Notes under the pieces: generated by a model
Database searches by the model: none
The model's input: the letters and a program-made list of their open reading frames with translations, nothing else
What the model was told of the DNA's origin: nothing
Program-made: the position numbers and the translations under genes
Assembly (NCBI RefSeq): GCF_017353515.1
Contig: NZ_JAFMPY010000023.1
Location: 1 to 64,000, forward strand
Length of the DNA stretch: 64,000 nt
Reading direction: 5' to 3'
Source: Jiella sonneratiae
GTDB taxonomy: Bacteria; Pseudomonadota; Alphaproteobacteria; Rhizobiales; Rhizobiaceae
Shown here: positions 18,122 to 50,467 of the stretch, piece by piece
Position numbering within the stretch: position 1 is the first letter of the stretch
Layout of the letters: each line of letters begins with the position of its first letter

Positions 18122-19930
18122 TCAGTCGTTCCTGCCCTTCGCCCCGACCAGCCGGCGCAGCGCCGCGACGAAGTCCCGGCGGCTGAAGAACAGCGGGATC
18201 TGGCTGCCGCGGCCGCTTTCCGGCACCAGCGACAGGCCGGCGGCGACGACGGCGCCGTCGAGGCCGGTCTGGCGGACGATCAGCTCCACCGGCGCGGCGG
18301 CGACGCGGTCGCCATATTCGGCCTCGCCGCCGAGCCGGGCGACCATCAGCTCGGAGATCGTCATCGCCGCCTCGTCCGGCTGGAGCCGCACGCCGTAGGC
18401 CTCGGCAAGGCCGATTGCCTTGGCGCCCGGGTCGACCGAGAACTCGCCAAAGAATTCCGCATCGTCGGGGCTGACCTGCGCCGGCCGCGCGAAGAGCCGG
18501 TCGAGCAGCGGCGGATAGCGCGGCGAGAGAAACAGGAAGACGTAGTCGCCGGGCTTCAGCCGCCCGGCATATTGATAGGCCATCGAGCGCCCCTCGCGGA
18601 TCACCAGCGACGGCCGCGCCCAGCGCGGGATCCGCTCGCCGCGGGCGACCGGGCTTCCGGCGGCGACGCGGTAGGACAGGAGCTCGTGGTCGGGATTGCC
18701 CGGCAGTTCGAGCTCGTATTTCTCGATGACGCCGGTGCGCGGCGGCACCACGAGGCCGAGGCGCCGCGCCACGGCGGCGATGGTCCAGCCCTGCACCAGC
18801 AGCGAGGCGAGGACGATGATGAAGGCGGTGTTGAAGAACAGCCGCGAATCGTCGAGCCCGCCGATCAGCGGCACGATGGCAAGCAGGATCGAGACGGCGC
18901 CCCTCAGCCCCACCCAGGAGACGAAGGCCATCTCGCGGCGCTGGAAGTCGAAGGGCAGCAGGCACAGCCAGACGGCCAGCGGCCTTGCGACGAAGATCAG
19001 GAAAGCGGCGAGCGCCAGGGCCGGCCAGAGGATGTCGGCGAACTGCGACGGCGTCGCCAGAAGCCCGAGGATCAGGAACATGACGATCTGGGCGAGCCAG
19101 GTCAGCCCGTCCTGGAAGCGCTTGACCGCGGCGGTGTTGGAGAGCCCGGCATTGCCGGCGTAGAGCCCTGCGACATAGACGGCGAGGAAGCCCGAGCCGC
19201 CGAGCGCCCCGACCGCCGCGAAGACGCAGAGCGCGAGGCTCAGCGTCACGATCGGCAGCAGCCCCTTGTCGATGGCGAGCCGCCGGATCACCCCGGCGAT
19301 GGCCATGCCGCCGAGAAAGCCGCCGAGAAGGCCGATCGCCATCTGCGCCAGAAGCCCGAGCGCCACCTCCGCGCCGATGGCGTCGACGCCCGACCCGGCG
19401 CGGATCGTCTCGACCAGCGCGACGGTCAGGAAGATCGCCATCGGATCGTTGGTGCCCGATTCGATCTCCAGCAGCGAGCGGACGCGGTCGCGGATGGTGA
19501 TGCCGCCGACCCGCAACAGGAAGAACACCGCCGCCGCGTCGGTGGAGCCGACGATGGCGCCGAGGAGCAGCCCCTCGACCAGCGGCAAGCCGAGGAGGAA
19601 GGTCGCGGCGACGCCGAACAGCGCGGAGGTCAGCAGCACGCCGAGCGTCGCCAGCGTGATCGCCGGCCCCGCCGCCTGGCGGAAGGCCGAGATGCGGGTG
19701 CCGAAGCCGGAATCGAACAGGATGATGGCGAGCGCGATCGTCCCGACGAAATAGGCGAGCCCGGCATTGTCGAAGTCGATGCCGATGCCGTCGACCCCGG
19801 CGAGAAGGCCGATCGACAGGAACAGGAGCAGCAGCGGGGCGCCGAACCGGAAGGCGAGCAGGCTGGAAAAGGCGGCGACGACGATGAGGACGGTGCCGAC
19901 GAGAATCAGGACATACAGGGATTCCAGCAT
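18122..19930 (-). CDS. nhaP2: Potassium/proton antiporter, CPA1 family (NhaP2/CvrA-like)
   Basis: A 602-residue inner-membrane antiporter. About twelve helices span ~5-390; the ion-binding motif region is [13 protein letters not shown] and [13 protein letters not shown] (the ND pair of electroneutral CPA1 exchangers). The C-terminal ~200 residues are cytosolic, with a TrkA_C/RCK-C-like domain ([15 protein letters not shown]) and an acidic CorC-HlyC-like end. This is the NhaP2 (YcgO/CvrA) architecture, which expels K+ in exchange for protons and protects against K+ excess. ATG 19930. It stands next to the AT-rich island, and the base composition changes sharply just upstream of its start. Confidence 0.9.
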
Positions 19931-20236
19931 CGGCTGCGGCGGGTCTCTCGGTCTGGCGGGGATGGGGCGGCAGCCGCGCCGCCGGGAGAGGATCTAGGGG
20001 AGTTCGGGAGGATGGGTACAGAAGGTGTGGGAAAAAGAAACGAGCGGGTGTGGGGTTTGGGTAGCGACGCTAAAGGACTATGCGCAGATGTCGGCTGGCT
20101 TTTAAATTCTGATCAATCGAGTCGGCACTAAGACCCCTGTGCCAGCACAGCCGCTGAAGCCACTGACGAGTTCCATTACGGTCGAGCATCGAATGCCCGT
20201 GTTAGAATTTTTTTTGCGACGCGCTCAATTCGATCG

Positions 20237-20266
20237 TTGCCGATGTCTCTGCATTTCGCTTATTGT
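20237..20266 (+). promoter_or_regulatory. Candidate promoter of the island operon
   Basis: TTGCCG (20237-20242) and TATTGT (20261-20266) are separated by 18 bp, about 25 bp upstream of the first island gene. The match to a sigma-70 promoter is moderate. Confidence 0.3.
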
Positions 20267-20291
20267 GCTCATTAAAGGGCAAGGTATTTAG

Positions 20292-21446
20292 ATGGCTACA
20301 CCCAACGCACCCGGAATATTTCTTATTGCCAATTCAATATTCCCTTACGGCTATGATGCAGTAAAAATACTAGCGTTACCTAATGGTTCTAGATATAGAG
20401 CGCGATTTGATCAGCATTTTGTTTCGGAACAGGTGAGAAGAGATTTTCATGGTCTGAAACAGAGAAAAGGAAGCTATTGCTTCAGAGATTATGAGAGCGG
20501 TTTAATAATTCCCCTCAGGAATATCACAATTGACGAAATATACCTTGTCGGATCCGTGTTTTATATTGGATACTCCGTAGACGAGATTTACGAGTTCCCG
20601 CAGGATGAGGAGCGTCTTGAGGGACAGATAGCTGAGTTCAACGAATTACTGCGAAAAAGTGTTAAACTAAACAACGATGCTCCAGGAAGAGATTTATACC
20701 CACTCGTGCTGATGGCCAATGCCGAGGTTAGATTCTCCGACGATGTTGAGACAATTAAAGAAGAGTATGACCAACAAATAAGGAGATGGGCTTCTATAGT
20801 TAGGCGTCTAGGTAAATTTAAATACTTGCAGTATGTACCTTTCCCTAGGGTCGTAGGAATTAGAGTGCTGAATAAAGGGGGATTCCAAAAAGTCACAAAT
20901 AACATGACTCTCGTGGGTAAAACCGACTATGAATTGCAATTGATGCACATGCTACAGTCGGACTCTTCTATTCCTCACAGTATAAACGAGAAAAGAACTG
21001 ATCGAGAAGATAAATTCAAAGAAAGGGCATCATACGAAATAATGATAGTGGGTGAATCTGCGGTATTTTCTCTGCAAAGACCTAGCGCCAGGATGACGGG
21101 ATCGTATGATGTTAATACATTTGTTTTTCGTACTGCAGACATATCAAGTCGCATACCGGCTCACTTAACAATCGATTATGGGGAGAAGCCGGATAGTCTC
21201 GATAGATTAGACACATCTCTCAACTTTTTTGTGTACGTTAAGCCATCGATTAGATTTCCCATAATTTCGATAGTGGGCCTTTTCGTATTCGGTGCGATAT
21301 ATATGATCCCCAACGTATTGCCGACGTTACTACAGGGGGATAACTTTTCGGCGAGAACCGTTCAAGACCTCTCTCTTGTTGCAATCTCGCTGACTGCTTT
21401 CGACGTAATCGGTAGAATTAACAAATTTATCTTGAGCCGAAAATGA
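20292..21446 (+). CDS. Unknown protein with C-terminal membrane segments, island gene 1
   Basis: A 384-residue protein I cannot assign to a family. Residues ~1-310 look soluble and mixed alpha/beta (IFLIANSIFPYGYDAVKIL at the start; a charged helical stretch ~100-175; a beta-rich part ~205-310). The C-terminus has a clear hydrophobic helix (~322-341) and a second weaker one (~357-376), a hairpin that would anchor it in the inner membrane, followed by the basic FILSRK. ATG 20292 has AAGG about 8 nt upstream. Its stop overlaps the carbamoyltransferase start (ATGA), so the two are made together. No enzyme motif is seen. The soluble-domain-plus-two-helices layout resembles membrane effectors in bacterial conflict systems, but that is only an analogy. 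Confidence 0.75.
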   Translation: MATPNAPGIFLIANSIFPYGYDAVKILALPNGSRYRARFDQHFVSEQVRRDFHGLKQRKGSYCFRDYESGLIIPLRNITIDEIYLVGSVFYIGYSVDEIYEFPQDEERLEGQIAEFNELLRKSVKLNNDAPGRDLYPLVLMANAEVRFSDDVETIKEEYDQQIRRWASIVRRLGKFKYLQYVPFPRVVGIRVLNKGGFQKVTNNMTLVGKTDYELQLMHMLQSDSSIPHSINEKRTDREDKFKERASYEIMIVGESAVFSLQRPSARMTGSYDVNTFVFRTADISSRIPAHLTIDYGEKPDSLDRLDTSLNFFVYVKPSIRFPIISIVGLFVFGAIYMIPNVLPTLLQGDNFSARTVQDLSLVAISLTAFDVIGRINKFILSRK

Positions 21447-23551
21447 TTATCGCGGGTTGTAATCAGGCCTACACCTCGTACTCCAAATCGCTGCCCGATG
21501 GCGGCATCGCGGTTATCCAAAACAACAATCTATCATTTGCCATTGCTGAAGATCGTTTGACTCGTAGGAAGGGGAGTGGAGGGTTCTCGGCAGCGCTAAA
21601 TTACTATAAAACAAATATTGCAAAGCGTGGCGAAATATTTGACGATTTAGTTTTGTCCTCTTGTTGCGACTACTCGACATCTTTTATATTTGGGAACCTT
21701 CCGAGTAAAAAGATTACAAGATGTGGTCACCACCGCTCCCATGCGCTTGGAGCTGCCGCGTGGTCAGGCTTCAACCGGGCAATAGTGCTTGTCATGGATA
21801 GCGGAGGTGACGTTCTTGAAAGTGTTGTTGATGGTAAATGGTGGCTGTCTAAGAGAGAGCAGCACAGCATTTTCCTGATTGACGGCAATGAGATCCGGTT
21901 GCTCGCCAGACACGCTGAGGATCCTGGTGCAATTGGTTTCGGCGAGATCTTCCGCGCGATGACATACTTTCTCGGCTGGCACGGCGCACGTTACGCTGGA
22001 AACACTATGGCTGCGGCAGCACTGGCGCCTGTCAGAAATCAATTATCAGGATTTCATTTCTTTGAACATTCCGGTACTGAGTTTGTTTTTCCTTTGGGCA
22101 ATGACCCAGAAAAAAATGGGAGATTAATTAACGACCTTTTAGAGAAAAACAATATCTTTGGCTTCGATCAAAGGGCGCCCGACAGTCCGTTCAGTCCAAA
22201 GCATTTCGGAATAGCCGCGTGGCTCCAGTCAGAACTTGATAGATATGTTGAGCTAATCGCAGCCCAGTATTGTGCTATGTATGAAACTGAGAATTTCATT
22301 CTCTCAGGTGGCGTTGCCTACAACTGCGTATCGGCAGGGAGGCTTCAAAAGAAGTACCCACGGTTGAATGTATTTGTTCACCCAGCTTCAGGCGACGTTG
22401 GCCAGTGCCTCGGCAATGCCATCGACGGGTATTTACGCAGTACGGGCAAGATCTTACGGTTGCCAAAACAAGGTGTAGATTTGGGCGGAAAATATCGGAT
22501 GTCTCCACAGCGGAAGACGCGGATGGCCGCACTTTCTACGTCAGATTGCGACGATCCAAGGTTCACTCACCTCTCTCTAGCGCTAGCGGCGGGTAAGGTT
22601 TGTGCTTTGTTCAATGGCCGAAGCGAATTCGGGCCTCGGGCACTGGGTTTTAGGAGCATATTGGCGGACGCTACATATCCGGTCTCACGTGCTCGACTGA
22701 ATGAAATTAAGTCTCGAAATTACATGATGCCGGTCGCGCCCGTAGTACGAATTGAAGACGCGGCTGTTTACTTTGATATGGCTGGCGCTTCGCCTTACAT
22801 GGCAAAAACTGCTCCAATTCGAGATAATTACAAAAATATTATTGCATCTTGCTCGCAAGGTCATGGTTGGGCTCGCGTTCAGACCGTGTCACGGGCTGAA
22901 AATGAAGCTTTACATCGAATCCTTTCTGCGTTTTCGAGGGCGGGTCGCGTACCAGTGTTACTCAACACAAGCTTAAACGGTCCGGGGGAGCCAATCGTTG
23001 AAAGTATAGACGACTTATTGAGTTGGTGCGAGCGCATTCACATTGATTTCGTTTGGCTCAACGGTCGGCTTTATACGATGAATCCTGCGAAGGCTGAGGC
23101 GTTCCCGTTCTCCCGATCTAAGTTCGCTGAACTGATAGACTCGAACTATGACCCTATTGAACTGCAAGAGCGTTTGGAGATTATTTTTCCACACATTGCG
23201 GTTCGGAAACGTAGGCGCTTGTTGCTTCGTTCGGACTACGTACGTTGGGTTCAAGAGGGTAGGAAGACAACGACTGTTCGTTTTCGGGCTGGTTGCGTTG
23301 AAGTCCCCGCGGAAACATCTCTGCCGCTTTTCGCGTCCAACCGATTTGAAAGCTTTGCTGAAGGTGAGACACTAGAAATAGGAGAAGTCTTTTTCACGAG
23401 GGCTACATATAAGCGGTTTTCGGAGCTCGACGAGGGTGACGCAGTGGCCGATGGATTTCGTTCTGAGGCCGAGTTGAAAAATACGCTCCAACAAATTTAT
23501 CCAGCGCTTACCGGCGAAAGCATGGTATCTATCTTTGACATATCCATTTGA
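21443..23551 (+). CDS. NodU/TobZ-family carbamoyltransferase fused to an ASCH domain
   Basis: A 702-residue protein. Residues 1-~345 form the Kae1-like carbamoyltransferase N domain: HHRSHA with metal-site H96/H100, DSGGD (119-123), LSGGVAYNC (287-295) and HPASGDVGQCLGNA (313-326). Residues ~380-545 form the C (YrdC-like) domain: GRSEFGPRALGFRSILAD (392-409), GHGWARVQ (473-480), LLNTSLNGPGEPIV (507-519). Residues ~590-702 add an ASCH domain like E. coli YqfB: GRKTTTVR (606-613) keeps the Lys and Thr (K608, T611), with an acid near D670 and LKNTLQQIYPA. The family transfers carbamoyl from carbamoyl phosphate to hydroxyls of nucleosides, sugars or antibiotics; YqfB deacylates N4-acetylcytidine. 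The usual MGLAPYG block is diverged (AGNTMAAAALA). Inference: modifies a nucleoside or nucleic acid. Confidence 0.85.
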   Translation: MIIAGCNQAYTSYSKSLPDGGIAVIQNNNLSFAIAEDRLTRRKGSGGFSAALNYYKTNIAKRGEIFDDLVLSSCCDYSTSFIFGNLPSKKITRCGHHRSHALGAAAWSGFNRAIVLVMDSGGDVLESVVDGKWWLSKREQHSIFLIDGNEIRLLARHAEDPGAIGFGEIFRAMTYFLGWHGARYAGNTMAAAALAPVRNQLSGFHFFEHSGTEFVFPLGNDPEKNGRLINDLLEKNNIFGFDQRAPDSPFSPKHFGIAAWLQSELDRYVELIAAQYCAMYETENFILSGGVAYNCVSAGRLQKKYPRLNVFVHPASGDVGQCLGNAIDGYLRSTGKILRLPKQGVDLGGKYRMSPQRKTRMAALSTSDCDDPRFTHLSLALAAGKVCALFNGRSEFGPRALGFRSILADATYPVSRARLNEIKSRNYMMPVAPVVRIEDAAVYFDMAGASPYMAKTAPIRDNYKNIIASCSQGHGWARVQTVSRAENEALHRILSAFSRAGRVPVLLNTSLNGPGEPIVESIDDLLSWCERIHIDFVWLNGRLYTMNPAKAEAFPFSRSKFAELIDSNYDPIELQERLEIIFPHIAVRKRRRLLLRSDYVRWVQEGRKTTTVRFRAGCVEVPAETSLPLFASNRFESFAEGETLEIGEVFFTRATYKRFSELDEGDAVADGFRSEAELKNTLQQIYPALTGESMVSIFDISI

Positions 23552-23599
23552 TACGGAAAGGATTCTATTATTTGGCGTCGGTAAGTCTTATAAAATCTT

Positions 23600-23713
23600 A
23601 TGAATGTTAATGAAAGTGTAATTGCACGCCCAGACCCCGGCGGTGTTGCGGCAATTTATGCAGGTGGCCGCTGTTCTGTTTTAGCTTATGACAGCCTAAT
23701 ATGCTGTCCCTGA
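23600..23713 (+). pseudogene. Short cut-off frame at the right edge of the island
   Basis: ATG 23600 opens a 37-codon frame (MNVNESVIARPDPGGVAAIY onward) ending at TGA 23713, just where the composition returns to host-like. The first residues read like the start of a protein, then end at the boundary, so this may be the stump of a third operon gene. No ribosome site is clear and no family is recognised; it could be chance. Confidence 0.3.
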
Positions 23714-24300
23714 AGAAAGATATCCCCACCCCCTCGCGCCGCCCGTATGATTCCCCGACCGCCGGCTCACGGAACGGGCACGAATGATCACCGGGATCGT
23801 TCGGGGGCCGGCGGGCGGTGTCCGCGGCGGTGCGCTCTTCCGGAGGGTGCCCGTCCCGGACGGCTGCGAGGCGCCGCTGGCCCCTCCTCGACTATGCGGG
23901 GGGTGCGGATCGGTCCGCTTGACCGGAGGCATTCGGGAAGCGCCAGCCGCCATCGCGACGACCCGTCCCCGCCGCGGCAGCGGCGGGGTGGCCTTGAAAG
24001 GCAGCGGGTGGAAGCGATGCATTCGCAAGGCCGTGAGCGCACCGCGCGGGATGCCGGAGGCGGACCGTAGAAACAAAAGTTCGGAGGGTCTGCCTCCGGC
24101 ATCCCGCCGCCCGCCGACAGGAGCGAGGCGGGCGAAACGACGCTCCATCCCTTCGCGGCTTCCCGCCGGCGGGGCGGTGTTCGCGCGTCCATCGCCCAAA
24201 AGGCCCGCCGCCAAAAGGCGGAAGGCCTCTTCCCGACGCGCTGCCTGCGGCGGGCGCTCCCGGCGCGAGGGTAGAGGGGCGGGACGATACGGCCGCCGTC
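23714..24300. other. Intergenic region with inverted repeats, no gene recognised
   Basis: About 590 bp of high-GC sequence downstream of the TRAP operon (convergent with the island). Frames are open on both strands but low-complexity (Arg/Pro/Gly-rich) and lack ribosome sites. It contains the hairpin at 24048-24105. Confidence 0.4.
24048..24105. repeat. Long hairpin (19-bp arms)
   Basis: GGGATGCCGGAGGCGGACC (24048-24066) faces its complement at 24087-24105 with a single mismatch and a 20-nt AT-richer loop. The arms would form a stable stem in RNA. It is probably an interspersed palindromic repeat; it may also end transcription of the TRAP operon, whose last stop is about 195 bp away. Confidence 0.6.
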
Positions 24301-25656
24301 CTAGCCGTACACCGCCTCGGGCAGCCAGGTGATGATCTCGGGGAAGACCATGCAGAGGACGAGGCCGGTGAGCTGGATCAGCAGGAAGGGGATCGCCGCC
24401 TTGAAGATGCGGGTCATCGGGATTTCCGGCGGGGCGACGCCCCTCAGATAGAACAGCGCATAGCCGAAGGGCGGCGACAGGAAGCTCATCTGCATGTTGA
24501 CGAGATAGAGGACGCCGAACCACAGCACCAGCTCGTCCGGCCCGTCGAGACCGAAGCTCGCCGCGCCGAGCTGCTTGATGATCGGCACGAAGATCGGCAC
24601 GCAGAGGAGCAGGATGCCGACCCAGTCGAGGAACATGCCGAGGAAGATCAGGATCAGCTGCATGAAGATCAGGATGCCCCACGGCCCGAGACCCATGCCC
24701 TGCATGGCGCCGGCGACGAACTGCTGGCCGCCTTCGAGGACGTAGAGGCCGACGAAGATCGTCGCGCCGAACATGATCCAGATGACCATGGCGGTGGCCT
24801 TGAGGGTGGTGAGGCAGGCGCCCTGCACCGTCGGCCAGTCGAGCTTCCTGTGGATCGCCGCGACGATGAAGGCGCCGAAGGTGCCGATGCCGGCCGCCTC
24901 GACGGGCGTCGCGACGCCGGAGAAGATGACGCCGAGGACGACGACGATCAGCGCGATCGGCGCCGACATCTTCGACATCACCCGCACCTTTTCGCGGAAC
25001 GAGATGCGCTCTTCCGGCGGCGCCGGCGGCCCGAGCTCCGGATTGATGTAGGAGCGGGCGACGACGTAGAGGACGTAGAGGCCGGAAAGGAGGAGGCCCG
25101 GAAACACCGCGCCGATGAAGAGTTCGCCCACCGACTGTTCGGCGACGACCGCGTAGATGATCGCGAGGATCGACGGCGGGATCAGGATGCCGAGCGTGCC
25201 GCCGGCCATGATCGAGCCCATGGCGATCTCGGGATTGTAGTGCCGCTTCAGCATGGCGGGGAGCGCGATGATGCCCATCGTCACCACCGCCGCGCCGATG
25301 ACGCCGACCATCGCGGCGAGCACCGTCGAGGCGATGATGGTGGCGGCCGCGAGCCCGCCCTTCACGCCGCCGAGCACCTTGTAGATGACGTCGAACATGT
25401 CGTTGATGATGCCGGCCCGTTCCAGCATCGCCGCCATGAAGATGAACAGCGGGATTGCCGAGAGCTGGTAGTTGGTCATCAGCGGGAAGATGCGCGACGG
25501 CACGATGTTCAGCGTCTGCCAGTCGCCGAGAACGAACAGGAAGACGCAGGCGAGCCCGCCGGTGACGAAGGCGAGCGGCAGGCCGGCCATCAGAAGCAGC
25601 AAGAGGCTGCCGAACATGATCAGCGTCAGCCAGCCGATTTCGATTTCGAGACCCAT
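24301..25656 (-). CDS. TRAP transporter large permease (DctM)
   Basis: A 451-residue membrane protein with about twelve helices, the standard DctM size. Typical blocks: the early LTLIMFGSLLLLLMAGLPLA, the central IGAAVVTMGIIALPAML and GGTLGILIPPSI, and the late GLGPWGILIFMQLILIFLGM and GVAPPEIPMTRIFK. It forms the Na+-driven translocation channel of a TRAP uptake system. ATG 25656 is 3 bp from the small-permease stop. Last gene of the operon. The transported compound cannot be deduced from the permease; organic acids are usual. Confidence 0.92.
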   Translation of the reverse strand: MGLEIEIGWLTLIMFGSLLLLLMAGLPLAFVTGGLACVFLFVLGDWQTLNIVPSRIFPLMTNYQLSAIPLFIFMAAMLERAGIINDMFDVIYKVLGGVKGGLAAATIIASTVLAAMVGVIGAAVVTMGIIALPAMLKRHYNPEIAMGSIMAGGTLGILIPPSILAIIYAVVAEQSVGELFIGAVFPGLLLSGLYVLYVVARSYINPELGPPAPPEERISFREKVRVMSKMSAPIALIVVVLGVIFSGVATPVEAAGIGTFGAFIVAAIHRKLDWPTVQGACLTTLKATAMVIWIMFGATIFVGLYVLEGGQQFVAGAMQGMGLGPWGILIFMQLILIFLGMFLDWVGILLLCVPIFVPIIKQLGAASFGLDGPDELVLWFGVLYLVNMQMSFLSPPFGYALFYLRGVAPPEIPMTRIFKAAIPFLLIQLTGLVLCMVFPEIITWLPEAVYG

Positions 25657-25659
25657 CGG

Positions 25660-26892
25660 TCAGGCCTTTCCGGGAGAGCTGGGGACCCCGGTCGCCAGGG
25701 TGCGGAAGTCCTGGACGAGCTTGGCGACGCCCTGGAGGAGAATGAGAAAGGCGCCGACGACGATCGCCCATTTGAACGGCCAGTAGGCGAGCTGCCACTC
25801 GGTGAAGGAGACCTCGTCGACCCGCGTCGCGTCGGCCGCGAAGATCCAGCCGGTGACGAGAAGCACGCCGGCGAAGATGAAGAAGAACACCACCGTCAGG
25901 ATGTCGGCGAGGGCTTTCCGCCGTGGCGACAGCGGCGCGTAGAAGACGTCGACGCGCACGTGGCTCTCGGTCAGCATCGCATAGGCGCCCATGATCAGGT
26001 ACTGCATCCCGAACATGAGATACATGCCCTCGTGGGCCCAGTTGGTGGGCGAGTTGAAGACGTATCGCGCGACGACTTCGTAATAGTAGACGAAGACGGC
26101 GATGACCGCCCAGTAGGAGACGAATTCGCCGGAGTAGAACGACAGCCTGTCGATCCAGCCGGCCCAGCCGGAGGAGACGGTGGCGCGGTCCTTGAGGAAC
26201 TCGCCGGAGAGTTCCGGCAGCGGTTCCTCGTCCTCCCCGGCCTTGTCCGCCAGCCGCGCATTGGCGCGGCGCACCAGCACCGGCAGCAGGAGGGCGTCGA
26301 TCGCCATCAGGACGAGGATCGCGGCGAAGGCGACGAAGGCGACGGTCTCCCAGAACGCCCGGTCGCCGCCCGCCCGGTCGGCGATCGCCTGCTGTTCGGC
26401 AAGGTCGGCGCGGGCGGCCTCCACCCGGTCGCGGGCGCCGGCGAGGCGGCGCTCCTCGCGCTGCAGCCGCCGTTCGGCCGCCTTCTTGGTGAACGAGCCC
26501 TCTTCGGCCGCCGCCACCTGGCTCCGAAGGTCGGCGAGCGACCTGTCGGCCTCGGCGAGCCGCGGCTCCTCCCGCTCGATCGTGCCCTTCGAGACGCGCA
26601 CGATGTTGGTGGCGTTGGAATAGTCCGCGCGGGCCTCGCGCTGATGCGCGTTGGCGAAGAGGATCGCGCCGAAGAGCGGCAGGAACAGAAGGCCCCACAG
26701 GATGCTCTTCAGGTAGAACCGATGCAGCCCCAGCATCCCGCCGGTGACGAGGACGAAATAGGCGAGGGGAAGGGAGTAGAGGCGTCTGCCGCCGCCTCGC
26801 CCGCGCCGCGCCATGATCATCGCGACGACGGGGAAGGCGACGAGCATCGCCCAGTACAGCCAGTGCGGCAGTACGAAGGTCAGGCTCGGCAT
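25660..26892 (-). CDS. TRAP small permease (DctQ) with N-terminal TM2 domain and coiled coil
   Basis: A 410-residue protein, far longer than the usual ~160-200. The C-terminal part (~235-400) is a normal DctQ: four helices with YEVVARYVFNSPTNWAHEGM and MLTESHVRVDVFYAPLSPRRK. In front lie a hydrophobic start, a TM2-like hairpin (~38-80) with GGMLGLHRFYLKSILWG, a charged coiled coil (~85-175, many E/R/A repeats), and another helix (~180-205). ATG 26892 has AGGA about 9 nt upstream. TM2-type hairpins occur in many membrane proteins of unclear role. The extension may give the transporter a sensory or assembly part (inference). Middle gene of the operon. Confidence 0.85.
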   Translation of the reverse strand: MPSLTFVLPHWLYWAMLVAFPVVAMIMARRGRGGGRRLYSLPLAYFVLVTGGMLGLHRFYLKSILWGLLFLPLFGAILFANAHQREARADYSNATNIVRVSKGTIEREEPRLAEADRSLADLRSQVAAAEEGSFTKKAAERRLQREERRLAGARDRVEAARADLAEQQAIADRAGGDRAFWETVAFVAFAAILVLMAIDALLLPVLVRRANARLADKAGEDEEPLPELSGEFLKDRATVSSGWAGWIDRLSFYSGEFVSYWAVIAVFVYYYEVVARYVFNSPTNWAHEGMYLMFGMQYLIMGAYAMLTESHVRVDVFYAPLSPRRKALADILTVVFFFIFAGVLLVTGWIFAADATRVDEVSFTEWQLAYWPFKWAIVVGAFLILLQGVAKLVQDFRTLATGVPSSPGKA

Positions 26893-27045
26893 CGGGGTCT
26901 GTCCTGGGTGGGAAGAGGCGGGCAGGTCCTGCCCGGAAGATGCGCGCCGGCAGTCTTCCATGCTCCGGCTGAAACGGGAGGGCCCGCTTCTGGAGCATGG
27001 CGCGCGGCCGGCGCGCCGGATCGGTCACTCGCAGTCGCCTGCCGG

Positions 27046-28158
27046 TCAGAGGTTGGTCAGCTCCAGCCCCTCGAGCAGGCTCGGCTCGACATAGCCCAAC
27101 GACCCGGACTGCATGTAGTCGAGCTGGATCTTGAAGATCCGGGCGGCATTCTTGTCCTTGTTCGCCCAGTTGAACCAAATCGGCACCGCGACCTCGGTCA
27201 TCAGCGCGACGTCGTCCTGGGTCAGGCGGGTCACCTCGGTGCCGTCGGCCTCGAACTTCTTCCAGGCCTCCTGATTGGCCTTCTGGATCGCCGCATGGTG
27301 CATGTCGGAATAGACGTGCGTCTCCATCTCGACGAACTGCTTCATCTCGGGCGACAGCTTGTTCCAGGCGTCCATGCCCACCGTCAGGTCCATCAGGTCG
27401 ACCGGCTGGTAGAGCGACATAAAGCCGGGAGGGCCCATCGAGATGTATTTGGTCACCTGGCTGAAGCCGAGGGCGTAGTTCACCGCCGGGCCGGTATAGT
27501 CGGCGACGTCGATCGTGCCCTTTTCCAGCGCCGGGAAGATCTCCGAGCCGGGCAGGACGGTGGTCTTGGCGCCGAGCGCCTGGAACACCTCGGCGACCAT
27601 GCCGCCGGGCAGCCGCATCTTGCGATCGCGGAAATCGTCGATCGAGCGGATCGGGACCTTGGAGTGGATGATGTTGGCGTCGTGCTGGATCGGGCCGACG
27701 AAGTGCATGCCCTGCGCGGCATAGAGCTCGCGGGCTATCTCGAGGCCGCCGAGGCCGTAGTAGAAGGTGTCGAACTCGTGCGGATTCCTCAGGCCGAGGG
27801 GATAGGAGGTCAGGAAGACGGCCGCCGGGATGATGCCCTGCGCATAGATCGTGAACGGATTGACGGCTTCGAGCACGCCGTTCTTCACCGCGTCGAAGAG
27901 CTGGAAGTCGCCGACCACGTCGTTCGCGCCGAAGGGCGTGAATTCCAGCTGGCCGGAGGTCTTCTCCTTGATGCTCCCGCACCATTCCTTGAAGGTCTGC
28001 AGCCCGATGCCGCCGGGCCAGGACGTCTGGACCCGCCAGGTGGTCGTCTCGCCGGCAGCGCGCGCCACGTGCGGTGCTGCAAGCGTTGCCGCAACTGTTC
28101 CTCCGGCCAGAACGGATCGGCCGAGAAACGCCCTGCGATCAATGTGTTGCTTCGCCAA
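27046..28158 (-). CDS. TRAP transporter substrate-binding protein (DctP), Tat-exported
   Basis: A 370-residue periplasmic binding protein, first gene of the TRAP operon. It has a twin-arginine signal (DRRAFLGRSVLAGG, cleavage near ARA-AG ~35). DctP landmarks: KMRLPGGMVAEVFQALGAKTT with the ligand-binding Arg, LEKGTIDVADYTGPA, and a KYISMGPPGFMS loop. It resembles the carboxylate-binding members; the ligand is not fixed by sequence. The start is TTG 28158 with GGGAGG about 5 nt upstream. The region upstream carries a long-range inverted repeat that may be an operator. Confidence 0.9.
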   Translation of the reverse strand: MAKQHIDRRAFLGRSVLAGGTVAATLAAPHVARAAGETTTWRVQTSWPGGIGLQTFKEWCGSIKEKTSGQLEFTPFGANDVVGDFQLFDAVKNGVLEAVNPFTIYAQGIIPAAVFLTSYPLGLRNPHEFDTFYYGLGGLEIARELYAAQGMHFVGPIQHDANIIHSKVPIRSIDDFRDRKMRLPGGMVAEVFQALGAKTTVLPGSEIFPALEKGTIDVADYTGPAVNYALGFSQVTKYISMGPPGFMSLYQPVDLMDLTVGMDAWNKLSPEMKQFVEMETHVYSDMHHAAIQKANQEAWKKFEADGTEVTRLTQDDVALMTEVAVPIWFNWANKDKNAARIFKIQLDYMQSGSLGYVEPSLLEGLELTNL

Positions 28159-47894: not shown

Positions 47895-48002
47895 TAATCA
47901 GGCGCCGAGACTGCCGGAAGTATGGGCGGGCATGGTCAGCGCGTTTCCGGCTTCTGCCCGAGCGACGAGGGGCAGACGTGGCGTGATCGAAAGGCGCGGG
48001 AA

Positions 48003-48036
48003 ATTTGAAACAGAATACTATGATTCTGTTTCAAAT
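48003..48036. repeat. Perfect 14-bp palindrome, left border of AT-richer patch
   Basis: ATTTGAAACAGAAT (48003-48016), a 6-nt loop, then its exact complement (48023-48036). A close relative occurs at 49798-49826. The pair brackets the 1.8-kb AT-richer segment containing a Crp-type gene and two very small genes. Confidence 0.75.
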
Positions 48037-48193
48037 GCGAGGATCTTGCCGCTCTCCTCCTTGCAGCCAAAACCGACGCAGTAGGTCCTTATTATTCGAC
48101 CACGGTCGCCGACAAAGAGAGGCTGTCAGTCGCAAAAGACGAATGTAGACGCCTCCTTATTATCGTGGGTTAGTGCGTAGGCAGCCACACGCG

Positions 48194-48209
48194 TTCAAGG
48201 GAATTTGAA
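48194..48209. promoter_or_regulatory. Operator-like palindrome before the Crp-type gene
   Basis: TTCAA-N6-TTGAA is centred 22 bp upstream of ATG 48224. Its spacing (6) is that of Crp/Fnr sites, although the half-sites differ. It could be an autoregulatory site. Confidence 0.3.
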
Positions 48210-48223
48210 CGAGAGGAAGGGCC

Positions 48224-48982
48224 ATGTTCAATCCATTAATCCGCAAGCTGTCGATAGCGTCCGATTTCACCGAGTCCGACAATCGCGCTTTGAATGACGT
48301 GATCGTCGAGCCTCATTCAGTGGCGCCGAAGCAGGATATCATCCGCACTGGTGATCGGCCGGAGAATGTCCACCTCGTGATGGACGGCATTGCCTGCCGC
48401 TACAAGATCATGCCGAATGGTGACCGCCAGATCGTCGCATTCCTGCTGCCTGGTGACTTCTGCGACCTCCACGTTGCGATTCTAGGCGAGATGGATCACG
48501 GGATCGCCACGCTCTCGCCCTGCAAGATGATCGAAATTCCACGGACGACAATCAACGATCTGACGGAAAACTATCCGCGTATCACCCGCGCGCTGTGGTG
48601 GGCGACGCTCGTCGATGAAGCCATCTTGCGCGAATGGATCGCGGGCATTGGCCAGAGAATGGCAGACAAGCGGATCGCCCATTTATTCTGCGAACTCTAT
48701 CTTCGCCTGAAAACAGTGGGCCAGACAGAAGACCATAGCTTCACTCTGCCAATAACACAGCAGGAGCTTGCTGATGCATTGGGAATATCGATCGTTCATG
48801 CGAACCGAATGCTGATGGATTTGCGAACAAGAAATATAATGGTCATGCGTGGAAAGCATGTGAAGATATTAAATTATGATGCCTTGAAAGCGTTCGCTGA
48901 ATTTAGCCCAGATTATCTGCATCTCGAACGCCGCAGCGAGAATGGCAACGGACAGAGATCCGTGTCCGACAAGGGACGCTGA
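48224..48982 (+). CDS. Crp/Fnr family transcriptional regulator (second copy)
   Basis: A 252-residue regulator with a cNMP-binding-type roll (~20-140: IIRTGDRPENVHLVMDGIAC, FLLPGDFCDLHVAILG) and a helix-turn-helix (~185-212: ITQQELADALGISIVHANRM). It shares the arrangement of the 35187 gene (REWI.G.G, RIAHLFCE, LPITQQELADALG) and likewise lacks the FNR cysteine cluster and has V..NR in the recognition helix. ATG 48224 follows GAGAGGAAGG. Codon use is AT-richer than the flanking genes, suggesting recent arrival with the surrounding patch. Ligand and targets unknown. Confidence 0.88.
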   Translation: MFNPLIRKLSIASDFTESDNRALNDVIVEPHSVAPKQDIIRTGDRPENVHLVMDGIACRYKIMPNGDRQIVAFLLPGDFCDLHVAILGEMDHGIATLSPCKMIEIPRTTINDLTENYPRITRALWWATLVDEAILREWIAGIGQRMADKRIAHLFCELYLRLKTVGQTEDHSFTLPITQQELADALGISIVHANRMLMDLRTRNIMVMRGKHVKILNYDALKAFAEFSPDYLHLERRSENGNGQRSVSDKGR

Positions 48983-49059
48983 TACTGATGTTAATGCGCA
49001 GGCTCGCCCCGCCGATGTAGGCACAGCGGAACACCGTGCTCATGCAAAGGAAAGCCGTC

Positions 49060-49308
49060 ATGCCGCGCTATTTTTTCGACGTTGAAGATGCCAACGAGTT
49101 CATCCGAGACGAAGATGGTCATATTTGCGAGAGCGATGCACAAGTCCGCAAGGCCGCGATCGAAGCGTTGCCTGGCATGATCGGGATGCGCATTCCGGAT
49201 GGGGACACCCATAAAACGACTGTGAAGGTTCGGGATGAGGCAGGCGCCTACATCTATTCCGCCTCTCTGACGCTCGAAGCTGGCTGGATCGGGAAGCGCT
49301 CCCAATGA
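49060..49308 (+). CDS. DUF6894-like small protein
   Basis: An 82-residue protein starting MPRYFFDVEDANEFIRDEDG, the usual opening of a short uncharacterised family common in Hyphomicrobiales; the C half contains VRDEAGAYIYSASLTLE. ATG 49060 has AAAGGA about 9 nt upstream; ATGs at 49036 and 49042 are less likely. It sits in the same AT-richer patch as the Crp-type gene. No function is known for the family. Confidence 0.75.
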   Translation: MPRYFFDVEDANEFIRDEDGHICESDAQVRKAAIEALPGMIGMRIPDGDTHKTTVKVRDEAGAYIYSASLTLEAGWIGKRSQ

Positions 49309-49449
49309 ATGAATAGTTCACCCATCACGTATCAAAAGCCAGAGCCTACCGGCGTGGAGTGATTAGGTCCGATTTCCGGGAATTGTTAAATATGTGGTAG
49401 CGCACATTTTTGGTTGCCCCTACCAACTGGCTAAGTTGGAGGTAAACGC

Positions 49450-49707
49450 ATGATGCTTTCACCCAAGATGCTTACGGCTGAAGAAGCTGTTTTGCTTGAT
49501 CGACTTTTTCGCCACGGGCCACAGCAGCCGGAAAACCGGCAAGCGGCTCTCGCTCTTGTTGAAAAAGGCTTTGCCCGACAAGCCGGCCCGTTCGGAACTC
49601 TGGAAATCACAGAGTTCGGACGTCGCTCGGCGGGGATATACAAGATCGGTGATCCTGCACTCAACGATCATGCCGAAGGGCGAGATGCTGCCCCCGATAC
49701 GTTATAG
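49450..49707 (+). CDS. Small helical protein, unknown (possible winged helix)
   Basis: An 85-residue frame starting at ATG 49450, with GGAGG 7 nt upstream. Pattern LTAEEAVLLDRLFRHG ... ALALVEKGFARQAGPFGTLE ITEFGRRSAGIY fits a short winged-helix fold of the kind seen in tiny uncharacterised rhizobial proteins. It could be a DNA-binding accessory. Last gene before the right-hand palindrome. Confidence 0.55.
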   Translation: MMLSPKMLTAEEAVLLDRLFRHGPQQPENRQAALALVEKGFARQAGPFGTLEITEFGRRSAGIYKIGDPALNDHAEGRDAAPDTL

Positions 49708-49797
49708 TTCTATGTCCGGTGAGGTAGCCTTCAAAGGCGACAGGCCTTCGAGAGTGAGCCGATCGGGTGCGATCACCAAGAACATTTGTGCTCGGAT

Positions 49798-49826
49798 CTG
49801 AAACAGAATTCACAATTCCGTTTCAG
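49798..49826. repeat. 13-bp palindrome, right border of AT-richer patch
   Basis: CTGAAACAGAATT (49798-49810) and its complement with one mismatch (49814-49826), loop 3 nt. The arm core TGAAACAGAAT is shared with the palindrome at 48003. Confidence 0.7.
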
Positions 49827-49879
49827 CCGCCTCACGCTGGTCCCCGGTATCCCGAGGACCGGCCCGGGGCGTGCCCGTA

Positions 49880-50467
49880 TCACGCCGCCAAAACTACCGC
49901 CTCCTCCAGCACGAACCGCCCCGTCGGCGCGATGACGCCCGCCGCGCCGCCCAGCGCGCCCTCGACCAGTTCCAGCGCGAGGAGACGCCGCGGCTCGAAC
50001 GGGCCGGGCATGGCGAGCCAGCCGGTCTGTGCCGCCGAGAAGCCGAAGCGGCCGTAATATTCCGGGTCGCCGACGAGGATGATCGCACCGTGGCCGAGGC
50101 GCGCGGCCTCGGCCACGGCATGGCGCATCAGGAGGCTGCCGAGGCCGGTGCCCTGGGCATCCGGGGCGACGGCGAGGGGGCCGAGGAGGAGGGCGGGGAC
50201 GTTTGCGCCGTCCTGGCGGCCGGCGGTGATGTTCCACAGGCGAACCGTGCCGACGAGCGAGCCGTCGGGGCGGACCGCCGAAAAGGCGAGGCCCTCGGCC
50301 GGCAGGCGACCGGTGCGGATCTGCTCGGAGGACTTGCGGGTGCGGCCCGGGCCCATGGCGGCGTCGAGGAGGGCTTCGCGCGCCGGGACATGGGCGGCGG
50401 TTTCCTCGACGATCGCGGCGAAGGGGACGGCGTCGGCAAAGGCGGATGCGGAGACGAATGCGGTCAC
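49880..50467 (-). CDS. GNAT family N-acetyltransferase (YhbS-like)
   Basis: A 195-residue acetyltransferase. Acetyl-CoA-binding block LLLGPLAVAPDAQGTGLGSL (motif A with Q-x-x-G-x-G), followed by HAVAEAARLGHGAIILVGDP and EYYGRFGFSAA, typical of the YhbS/COG3153 branch. The start is GTG 50467 with GGAGG 5 nt upstream; longer readings add non-conserved residues. Substrate unknown. It lies on the same strand and about 185 bp downstream of the ornithine decarboxylase gene; in other Hyphomicrobiales a GNAT gene often follows ODC, so a shared polyamine role is possible. Confidence 0.85.
   Translation of the reverse strand: MTAFVSASAFADAVPFAAIVEETAAHVPAREALLDAAMGPGRTRKSSEQIRTGRLPAEGLAFSAVRPDGSLVGTVRLWNITAGRQDGANVPALLLGPLAVAPDAQGTGLGSLLMRHAVAEAARLGHGAIILVGDPEYYGRFGFSAAQTGWLAMPGPFEPRRLLALELVEGALGGAAGVIAPTGRFVLEEAVVLAA

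Follow-up and report, generated by a model that had tools for sequence, protein, structure and literature searches.

Carbamoyltransferase–ASCH fusion and adjoining membrane-anchored protein on a foreign insert of Jiella sonneratiae: a candidate anti-phage module in a cargo hotspot

Enzymes of the NodU/TobZ carbamoyltransferase family act on the hydroxyls of sugars, as do TobZ and NodU themselves. In addition, a carbamoyltransferase acting on 5-hydroxymethylcytosine (5hmC) in DNA and RNA is described in PMC8670742. Among ASCH proteins, YqfB hydrolyses N4-acylcytidines (PMC6972931), BapA, whose predicted structure is ASCH-like, protects against T-even phages as a 5hmC glycosylase (PMC13160076), and ZmASCH is cited in the same paper as a nucleic-acid binder that promotes the cleavage of RNA; ASCH and related PUA-type domains have been discussed as readers of modified bases (PMC11037411). 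Here we describe an insert at positions 20048–23712 (no strand assigned) of a 64,000-nucleotide stretch of the Jiella sonneratiae contig NZ_JAFMPY010000023.1, referred to below as the window. On this insert a gene for a membrane-anchored protein (gene 1) is followed by a gene in which a NodU/TobZ-type carbamoyltransferase is fused to an ASCH domain (gene 2). We read the insert, with a probability of about 0.4, as a rare, undescribed and horizontally acquired anti-phage module that sits in a cargo hotspot and uses carbamoylation.

The insert is foreign and was acquired horizontally. Its borders were taken from breaks in homology to congeners together with the shift in G+C content: on the left, homology to the window ends at 20047 (L049), 20019 (L050) and 20036 (L056), and on the right it restarts at 23712, 23716 and 23713, respectively. 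It is flanked by a host antiporter gene (18122–19930, minus strand) on the left and by genes for a tripartite ATP-independent periplasmic (TRAP) transporter (24301–28158, minus strand) on the right. The insert has a G+C content of 0.464, compared with 0.682 in the remainder of the window; along the window the value drops from about 0.70 outside to 0.44–0.55 within. At third codon positions, gene 1 and gene 2 have 0.41 and 0.48 G+C (0.413 and 0.489 overall), against 0.87–0.95 in five flanking host genes. Their mean log synonymous-codon probabilities, −2.18 and −1.99, compare with −0.61 to −0.81 for host genes, a contrast somewhat inflated by a background that includes the compared host genes themselves.

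Two complete genes, both on the plus strand, are found in the insert. Gene 1 (20292–21446) encodes 384 amino acids and gene 2 (21443–23551) encodes the 702-amino-acid fusion; the stop of the first and the start of the second overlap as ATGA (21443–21446, plus strand). This overlap, together with the foreign codon use of both genes, suggests that the two are co-expressed and were acquired jointly, even though they differ somewhat in G+C. The only other open reading frames (ORFs) of at least 90 codons lying fully within the insert are two short antisense frames (20588–20905 and 21764–22042), and the insert is too small to hold an integrase in addition to gene 1 and gene 2. A scan of Rfam gave zero matches, and a search of the insert DNA against plasmids gave no relative; promoter-like sites are in slight excess over shuffled sequences (8 against 5.1, standard deviation 2.0) and terminator-like sites are fewer (1 against 3.6). 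A preliminary description, made from the letters of the window alone, had outlined an AT-rich block at 19990–23713, near the congener-derived borders at about 20048 and 23712, and its account of foreign codon use, two genes overlapping by ATGA and nothing else complete inside is borne out by the ORFs and the composition.

The site takes different cargo in different members of the genus. The flanking antiporter gene is present in nine congeners, and the adjoining stretch was read in each; that of G565 (L053) stops at a contig end, leaving eight readable sites, and in G568 (L056) 11 kb of sequence did not extend as far as the TRAP genes, although the right-border element is present. In G570 and G569 the gap is nearly empty (131 bp). 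Lower-G+C cargo occurs in G567 (0.577), G563 (0.515) and G568 (0.561), and these three have a common right border with the window near 23713, followed by an element (23713–24300, no strand assigned) that is shared in whole or in part. Homology on the left reaches 20019–20047 in the same three and ends at 19930–19959 in the other six congeners. All three congeners with AT-rich cargo, a small number, carry defence-type genes recognised by PADLOC or Pfam. The cargo of G563 includes an 822-amino-acid SIR2_2 plus nSTAND5 protein with weak TPR matches. In G567 it comprises a 422-amino-acid PDC-M30A protein, which we take to be TcmP-like, a DUF5131 protein (PDC-M41B, E 2e-100; PDC-M30B, E 1e-94) and a 163-amino-acid protein with weak matches. 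G568 has a 193-amino-acid SIR2_2 protein, whose gene adjoins insertion-sequence genes and is possibly shortened, a Ham1 protein and a deoxynucleoside kinase.

When ten cargo proteins were searched with PADLOC, leaving out the G568 transposase genes, clear matches were obtained for the SIR2–STAND protein, the G567 pair and the SIR2 protein and weak ones for the 163-amino-acid protein and the kinase; Ham1, two small G568 proteins and a G564 sulfotransferase gave none. None of ten control proteins (six host proteins of the window, three cargo proteins of G566 and G571, one flank protein of G564) matched at E 0.01. Core-genome defence hotspots (e.g. PMC10250203) share with this site the fixed host flanks and the swapped cargo, and differ in that the AT-rich cargo here shares a right-border element. 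The preliminary description had read the foreign island as a candidate modification or conflict system, and the site does take defence-type cargo in some related species. As separate observations, the PDC-M30A/DUF5131 pair of G567 (L049:643–3463), found with a small DUF4145-like gene, consists of PADLOC candidates, and the SIR2–Ham1–deoxynucleoside kinase run of G568 (L056:4313–6059) is an uncommon combination and a possible defence system.

Four further partial copies of the border element are present in the J. sonneratiae genome. A type IIG restriction-modification enzyme (PADLOC E 0) is encoded 0.85 kb from the copy on contig C14 (92% over 478 bases), and the copy on C26 (74%) lies 140 bp from an AT-rich ORF of 531 amino acids. 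The element may be a recombination border, or merely an intergenic repeat. The ORF on C26 (L097:6844–8439) is a single gene with, by eye, an N-terminal hydrophobic stretch, and is a possible unlisted defence gene.

Gene 2 belongs to the NodU/TobZ O-carbamoyltransferase family. Its carbamoyltransferase part (residues 89–543; 21707–23071, plus strand), delimited by Pfam and by family-conserved residues, is above the cut-off for both Pfam domains, with 54.1 bits against 24 for Carbam_trans_N (residues 89–327) and 155.4 bits against 27 for Carbam_trans_C (residues 380–543, E 1.3e-45). It was aligned with a set of 43 further carbamoyltransferases, of which 42 came from fetched loci and one from PMC8670742. 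The family-conserved residues H96, H100, D119, D318, R399, N508, T509 and N512 are all kept, the first five being near-invariant; these eight and both Pfam domains are common to the NodU/TobZ/GdmN enzymes, to which gene 2 adds a C-terminal ASCH domain. From TobZ and Kae1 we take H96, H100, D119 and D318 to be metal or catalytic residues. At the same time, of 61 columns in which the other 43 sequences show conservation of 90% or more, gene 2 deviates at 13, including K187N, N298A, R429M, H472Q and D474H; comparable departures number 0–12 for the 42 locus enzymes and 23 of 64 for the 5hmC enzyme. In a tree, gene 2 sits on a long branch and its placement is unsure. Because the family residues are kept but these conserved columns are changed, gene 2 is probably an active, divergent member of the family with unusual substitutions.

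The ASCH domain (PF04266; residues 596–692; 23228–23518, plus strand), placed by Pfam and by motif spacing, scores 27.5 bits where the cut-off is 21.2 (E 5.2e-6). Pfam thus confirms the joining of a NodU/TobZ carbamoyltransferase to an ASCH domain that had first been read from the translation. The domain contains the motif GRKTTTVRF (residues 606–614; G606-R-K608-T-T-T611-V-R613), in which K608, T611 and R613 are spaced like Lys21, Thr24 and Arg26 of YqfB, the alanine mutants of which are inactive (PMC6972931); no equivalents of YqfB His70 and Glu74 were placed in it. The pattern G-x-K-T-x-T recurs in three of five aligned ASCH proteins of the host family (L087, L089, L091), and the Arg in two of those three; a mixed alignment (A2), which misplaced the ASCH rows, was not used. 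YqfB and BapA have ASCH in common with gene 2, where it is fused to a carbamoyltransferase. Because of this fusion, a nucleotide or nucleic acid is our tentative candidate for the carbamoyl acceptor.

An alternative is a toxin-type abortive module, in which the enzyme would carbamoylate the ribose hydroxyls of tRNA or rRNA of the host, with ASCH as the RNA-binding domain, growth would stop on infection, and the membrane protein would restrain or trigger the enzyme. The sugar-hydroxyl chemistry of TobZ and NodU would suit such a module, as would the nucleic-acid binding by ZmASCH and its promotion of RNA cleavage, and the overlap of the two genes at a site where relatives carry defence-type cargo. 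Yet nothing marks gene 1, which has no family match, as an antitoxin, and it is the enzyme that is encoded downstream; we consider a toxin unlikely.

The gene 1 protein combines a soluble N-terminal part with hydrophobic C-terminal segments, a strong one at about residues 320–341 and a weaker one at about 356–381 (together 21249–21434, plus strand), and hydropathy in this way supports the two-helix membrane anchor proposed for it earlier. It belongs to no known family: searches of Pfam, PADLOC and NCBIfam at E 1 gave no match, and its single PHROG match is non-significant (E 0.17). A profile search and a search with the ASCH domain against solved structures likewise gave no match. In PADLOC 2.0.0, at E up to 1, the two proteins of the insert match 0 families. 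Neither matches a cGAS/DncV-like nucleotidyltransferase or cyclase family of the cyclic oligonucleotide-based antiphage signalling system (CBASS) or the pyrimidine cyclase system for antiphage resistance (Pycsar), and the likeness to these systems is presumably one of two-gene layout only.

The sole relative of gene 1 that was found is a 380-amino-acid protein in G608, a genome of the same order, with 26% identity over 120 residues. This was the one genome matched among 297 searched (E 0.0012; 2e-6 in a blastp of the pair), and a tblastn of gene 1 over 100 fetched loci at E 0.05 missed it. The N-terminal parts of the two proteins align with a z score of 13.4, which none of 1,000 shuffles reached, and the remainder with z scores of 1.6–2.9; like gene 1, the relative has two hydrophobic segments at its C-terminus (327–351 and 348–380). 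The two proteins are probably homologous. The gene for the relative is located directly 3′ of DruE1 (PADLOC E 0) and beside DruD1 (E 2.9e-99) in a Druantia type I-like locus, in which a 402-amino-acid protein further upstream (L064:2978–4186), read from gene order against a plasmid record, is probably DruA. Searches of the stretches fetched around five further DruE-like loci (L060, L061, L065–L067), of which L060 and L061 extend just about 1.5 kb past DruE, did not recover the relative, so that it looks like a defence-island neighbour rather than a component of Druantia. Searches with it in plasmids, phages and viral contigs gave no match, and in its own family it was found in one of three genomes, its own. 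The insert itself differs from a Druantia type I locus: it has no Dru gene from DruA to DruE, its only two genes having 0 PADLOC matches. Two other genes of the G608 locus may be mentioned, an 86-amino-acid ORF without a Pfam match that overlaps the start of the relative and may be its partner (L057:1890–2150), and a gene for a caspase-domain (Peptidase_C14) protein a few kilobases from the Druantia genes (L058:3042–5885).

Because of its location, its composition and the Druantia neighbour of gene 1's relative, we favour a defence role for the insert, with some reserve. In the module that we propose, the fusion enzyme would be an active O-carbamoyltransferase, and its acceptor would be a hydroxyl on a nucleotide, a modified base or an RNA held by the ASCH domain. 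The membrane protein would be a co-expressed partner at the inner membrane that either senses infection or acts as an effector once the carbamoylated product appears; that it is the effector is a rather doubtful proposal. A fuller scheme of immunity by carbamoylation, in which the ASCH domain guides a mark onto phage or host nucleic acid, or a carbamoylated nucleotide is produced as a messenger, and membrane proteins of a new, C-terminally anchored class carry out the response or trigger it, seems less likely still. The link between the two proteins is drawn from the overlap and the joint acquisition, while enzyme activity and a nucleotide substrate are suggested by sequence features.

A number of observations weigh against an anti-phage module based on carbamoylation, and the first of these is its rarity. 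At E 1e-20, gene 2 has matches in 83 of 289 genomes of the class, its own included, and among the matches listed none but its own extends into the ASCH domain, apart from an artefact in G440, where a match to residue 634 with four TGA codons is a carbamoyltransferase of the ordinary kind with a spurious extension at its end. An ASCH match in G599 was also set aside, as it falls in an ORF taken for an antisense frame. All nine congeners lack the fusion, and gene 1 does not occur in the stretches that were read at the site in these nine. Gene 2 matches 313 plasmid records and 138 phage records, none of which covers 80% of the query, and gave no second fusion in genome contigs or viral contigs. 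For gene 1, partly overlapping samples of other genomes gave 1/296 (G608), 1/298 (G072) and 0/384; the G072 match (E 3.5e-4, one internal stop) is taken as chance, and the ORF list of that locus shows no matching gene. Only its own genome matched among 385 of the class, no relative was found in plasmids, phages or viral contigs, and a two-row alignment of gene 1 found no match in viral contigs or genome contigs. Within the genomes, plasmids and phages searched, neither the fusion nor the pair occurs a second time. In addition, a tblastn search of about 31 kb fetched around the G608 relative (L057, L058, L064) gave no carbamoyltransferase, and the recurrent adjacency of the two genes that the preliminary description had proposed as a test was not seen.

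This last result would suit two independent defence genes that happen to be adjacent, a stand-alone membrane defence protein, whose relative adjoins Druantia genes, and a separate carbamoyltransferase–ASCH protein. The ATGA overlap and the foreign codon use of both genes speak for a single unit, though their G+C differs somewhat (0.413 and 0.489), and coincidence appears to us the least likely of the explanations considered. Structure predictions were too poor for use (mean predicted local distance difference test score 36.8 for the A1 model and 43.5 for the ASCH model). A separate point against the proposed module is that the two short border-element copies, on C19 and C60, sit in ordinary-composition DNA.

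The comparison with the 5hmC carbamoyltransferase is a further point of this kind. Gene 2 matches that enzyme (PMC8670742) weakly (E 1e-9, 47 bits). The two share the superfamily, a Met in place of the Arg of RPFAP, and loss of the H and D of HVD. The Met is not diagnostic, because a bacterial carbamoyltransferase in G440 has it too, and its use as a marker of nucleic-acid enzymes is weakened. Where the 5hmC enzyme has C407 and T409, gene 2 has the canonical G402 and R404; if these are the equivalents of TobZ G421 and R423, which rests on spacing, gene 2 lacks the marker changes of the 5hmC group. No thymidylate synthase homologue was noticed among the ORFs read at 15–29 kb of the window, the whole genome not having been searched. 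Nothing in these comparisons groups gene 2 with the known 5hmC enzyme.

Finally, three congeners (G564, G566 and G571) hold 1.2–3.2 kb of non-defence cargo in the same gap, with a host-like G+C of 0.65–0.66 and without the border element: a sulfotransferase gene (Pfam, G564) and genes of oxidoreductase, regulator and cytochrome type, read from ORFs. Such metabolic cargo raises the alternative that gene 2 is a passenger, a carbamoyltransferase for a sugar or metabolite with no part in defence, its ASCH fusion being accidental or regulatory. Several relatives of gene 2 for which the neighbourhood was read do lie among metabolic, polysaccharide or biosynthetic genes, and relatives with solved structures include GdmN, the novobiocin carbamoyltransferase and TobZ. 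However, the host composition and missing border element set the cargo of those three congeners apart, a metabolic enzyme has no obvious need for an ASCH domain and a novel membrane protein, and no glycosyltransferase or other pathway gene is present among the ORFs of the insert. An antibiotic or Nod-factor cluster, which the preliminary description had named as the finding that would speak against its view, is likewise not seen in the insert. A passenger role is, in our estimate, improbable, about as much so as the toxin considered above.

By title, and with few subscription papers covered, no report of a carbamoyltransferase–ASCH protein or of phage defence by a carbamoyltransferase was found among the literature matches listed, and there the co-mention of "carbamoyltransferase" and "ASCH domain" concerned, again by title, algal arginine metabolism. 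If the pair defends, carbamoyl transfer would join the list of immune chemistries, and its substrate would be directly testable. The site and its border element offer a route to further unlisted defence genes in the genus. Elsewhere in the window, a second block of lower G+C (0.52–0.58) at 48001–50000 contains genes for a Crp-type regulator (48224–48982) and a DUF6894 protein (49036–49308).

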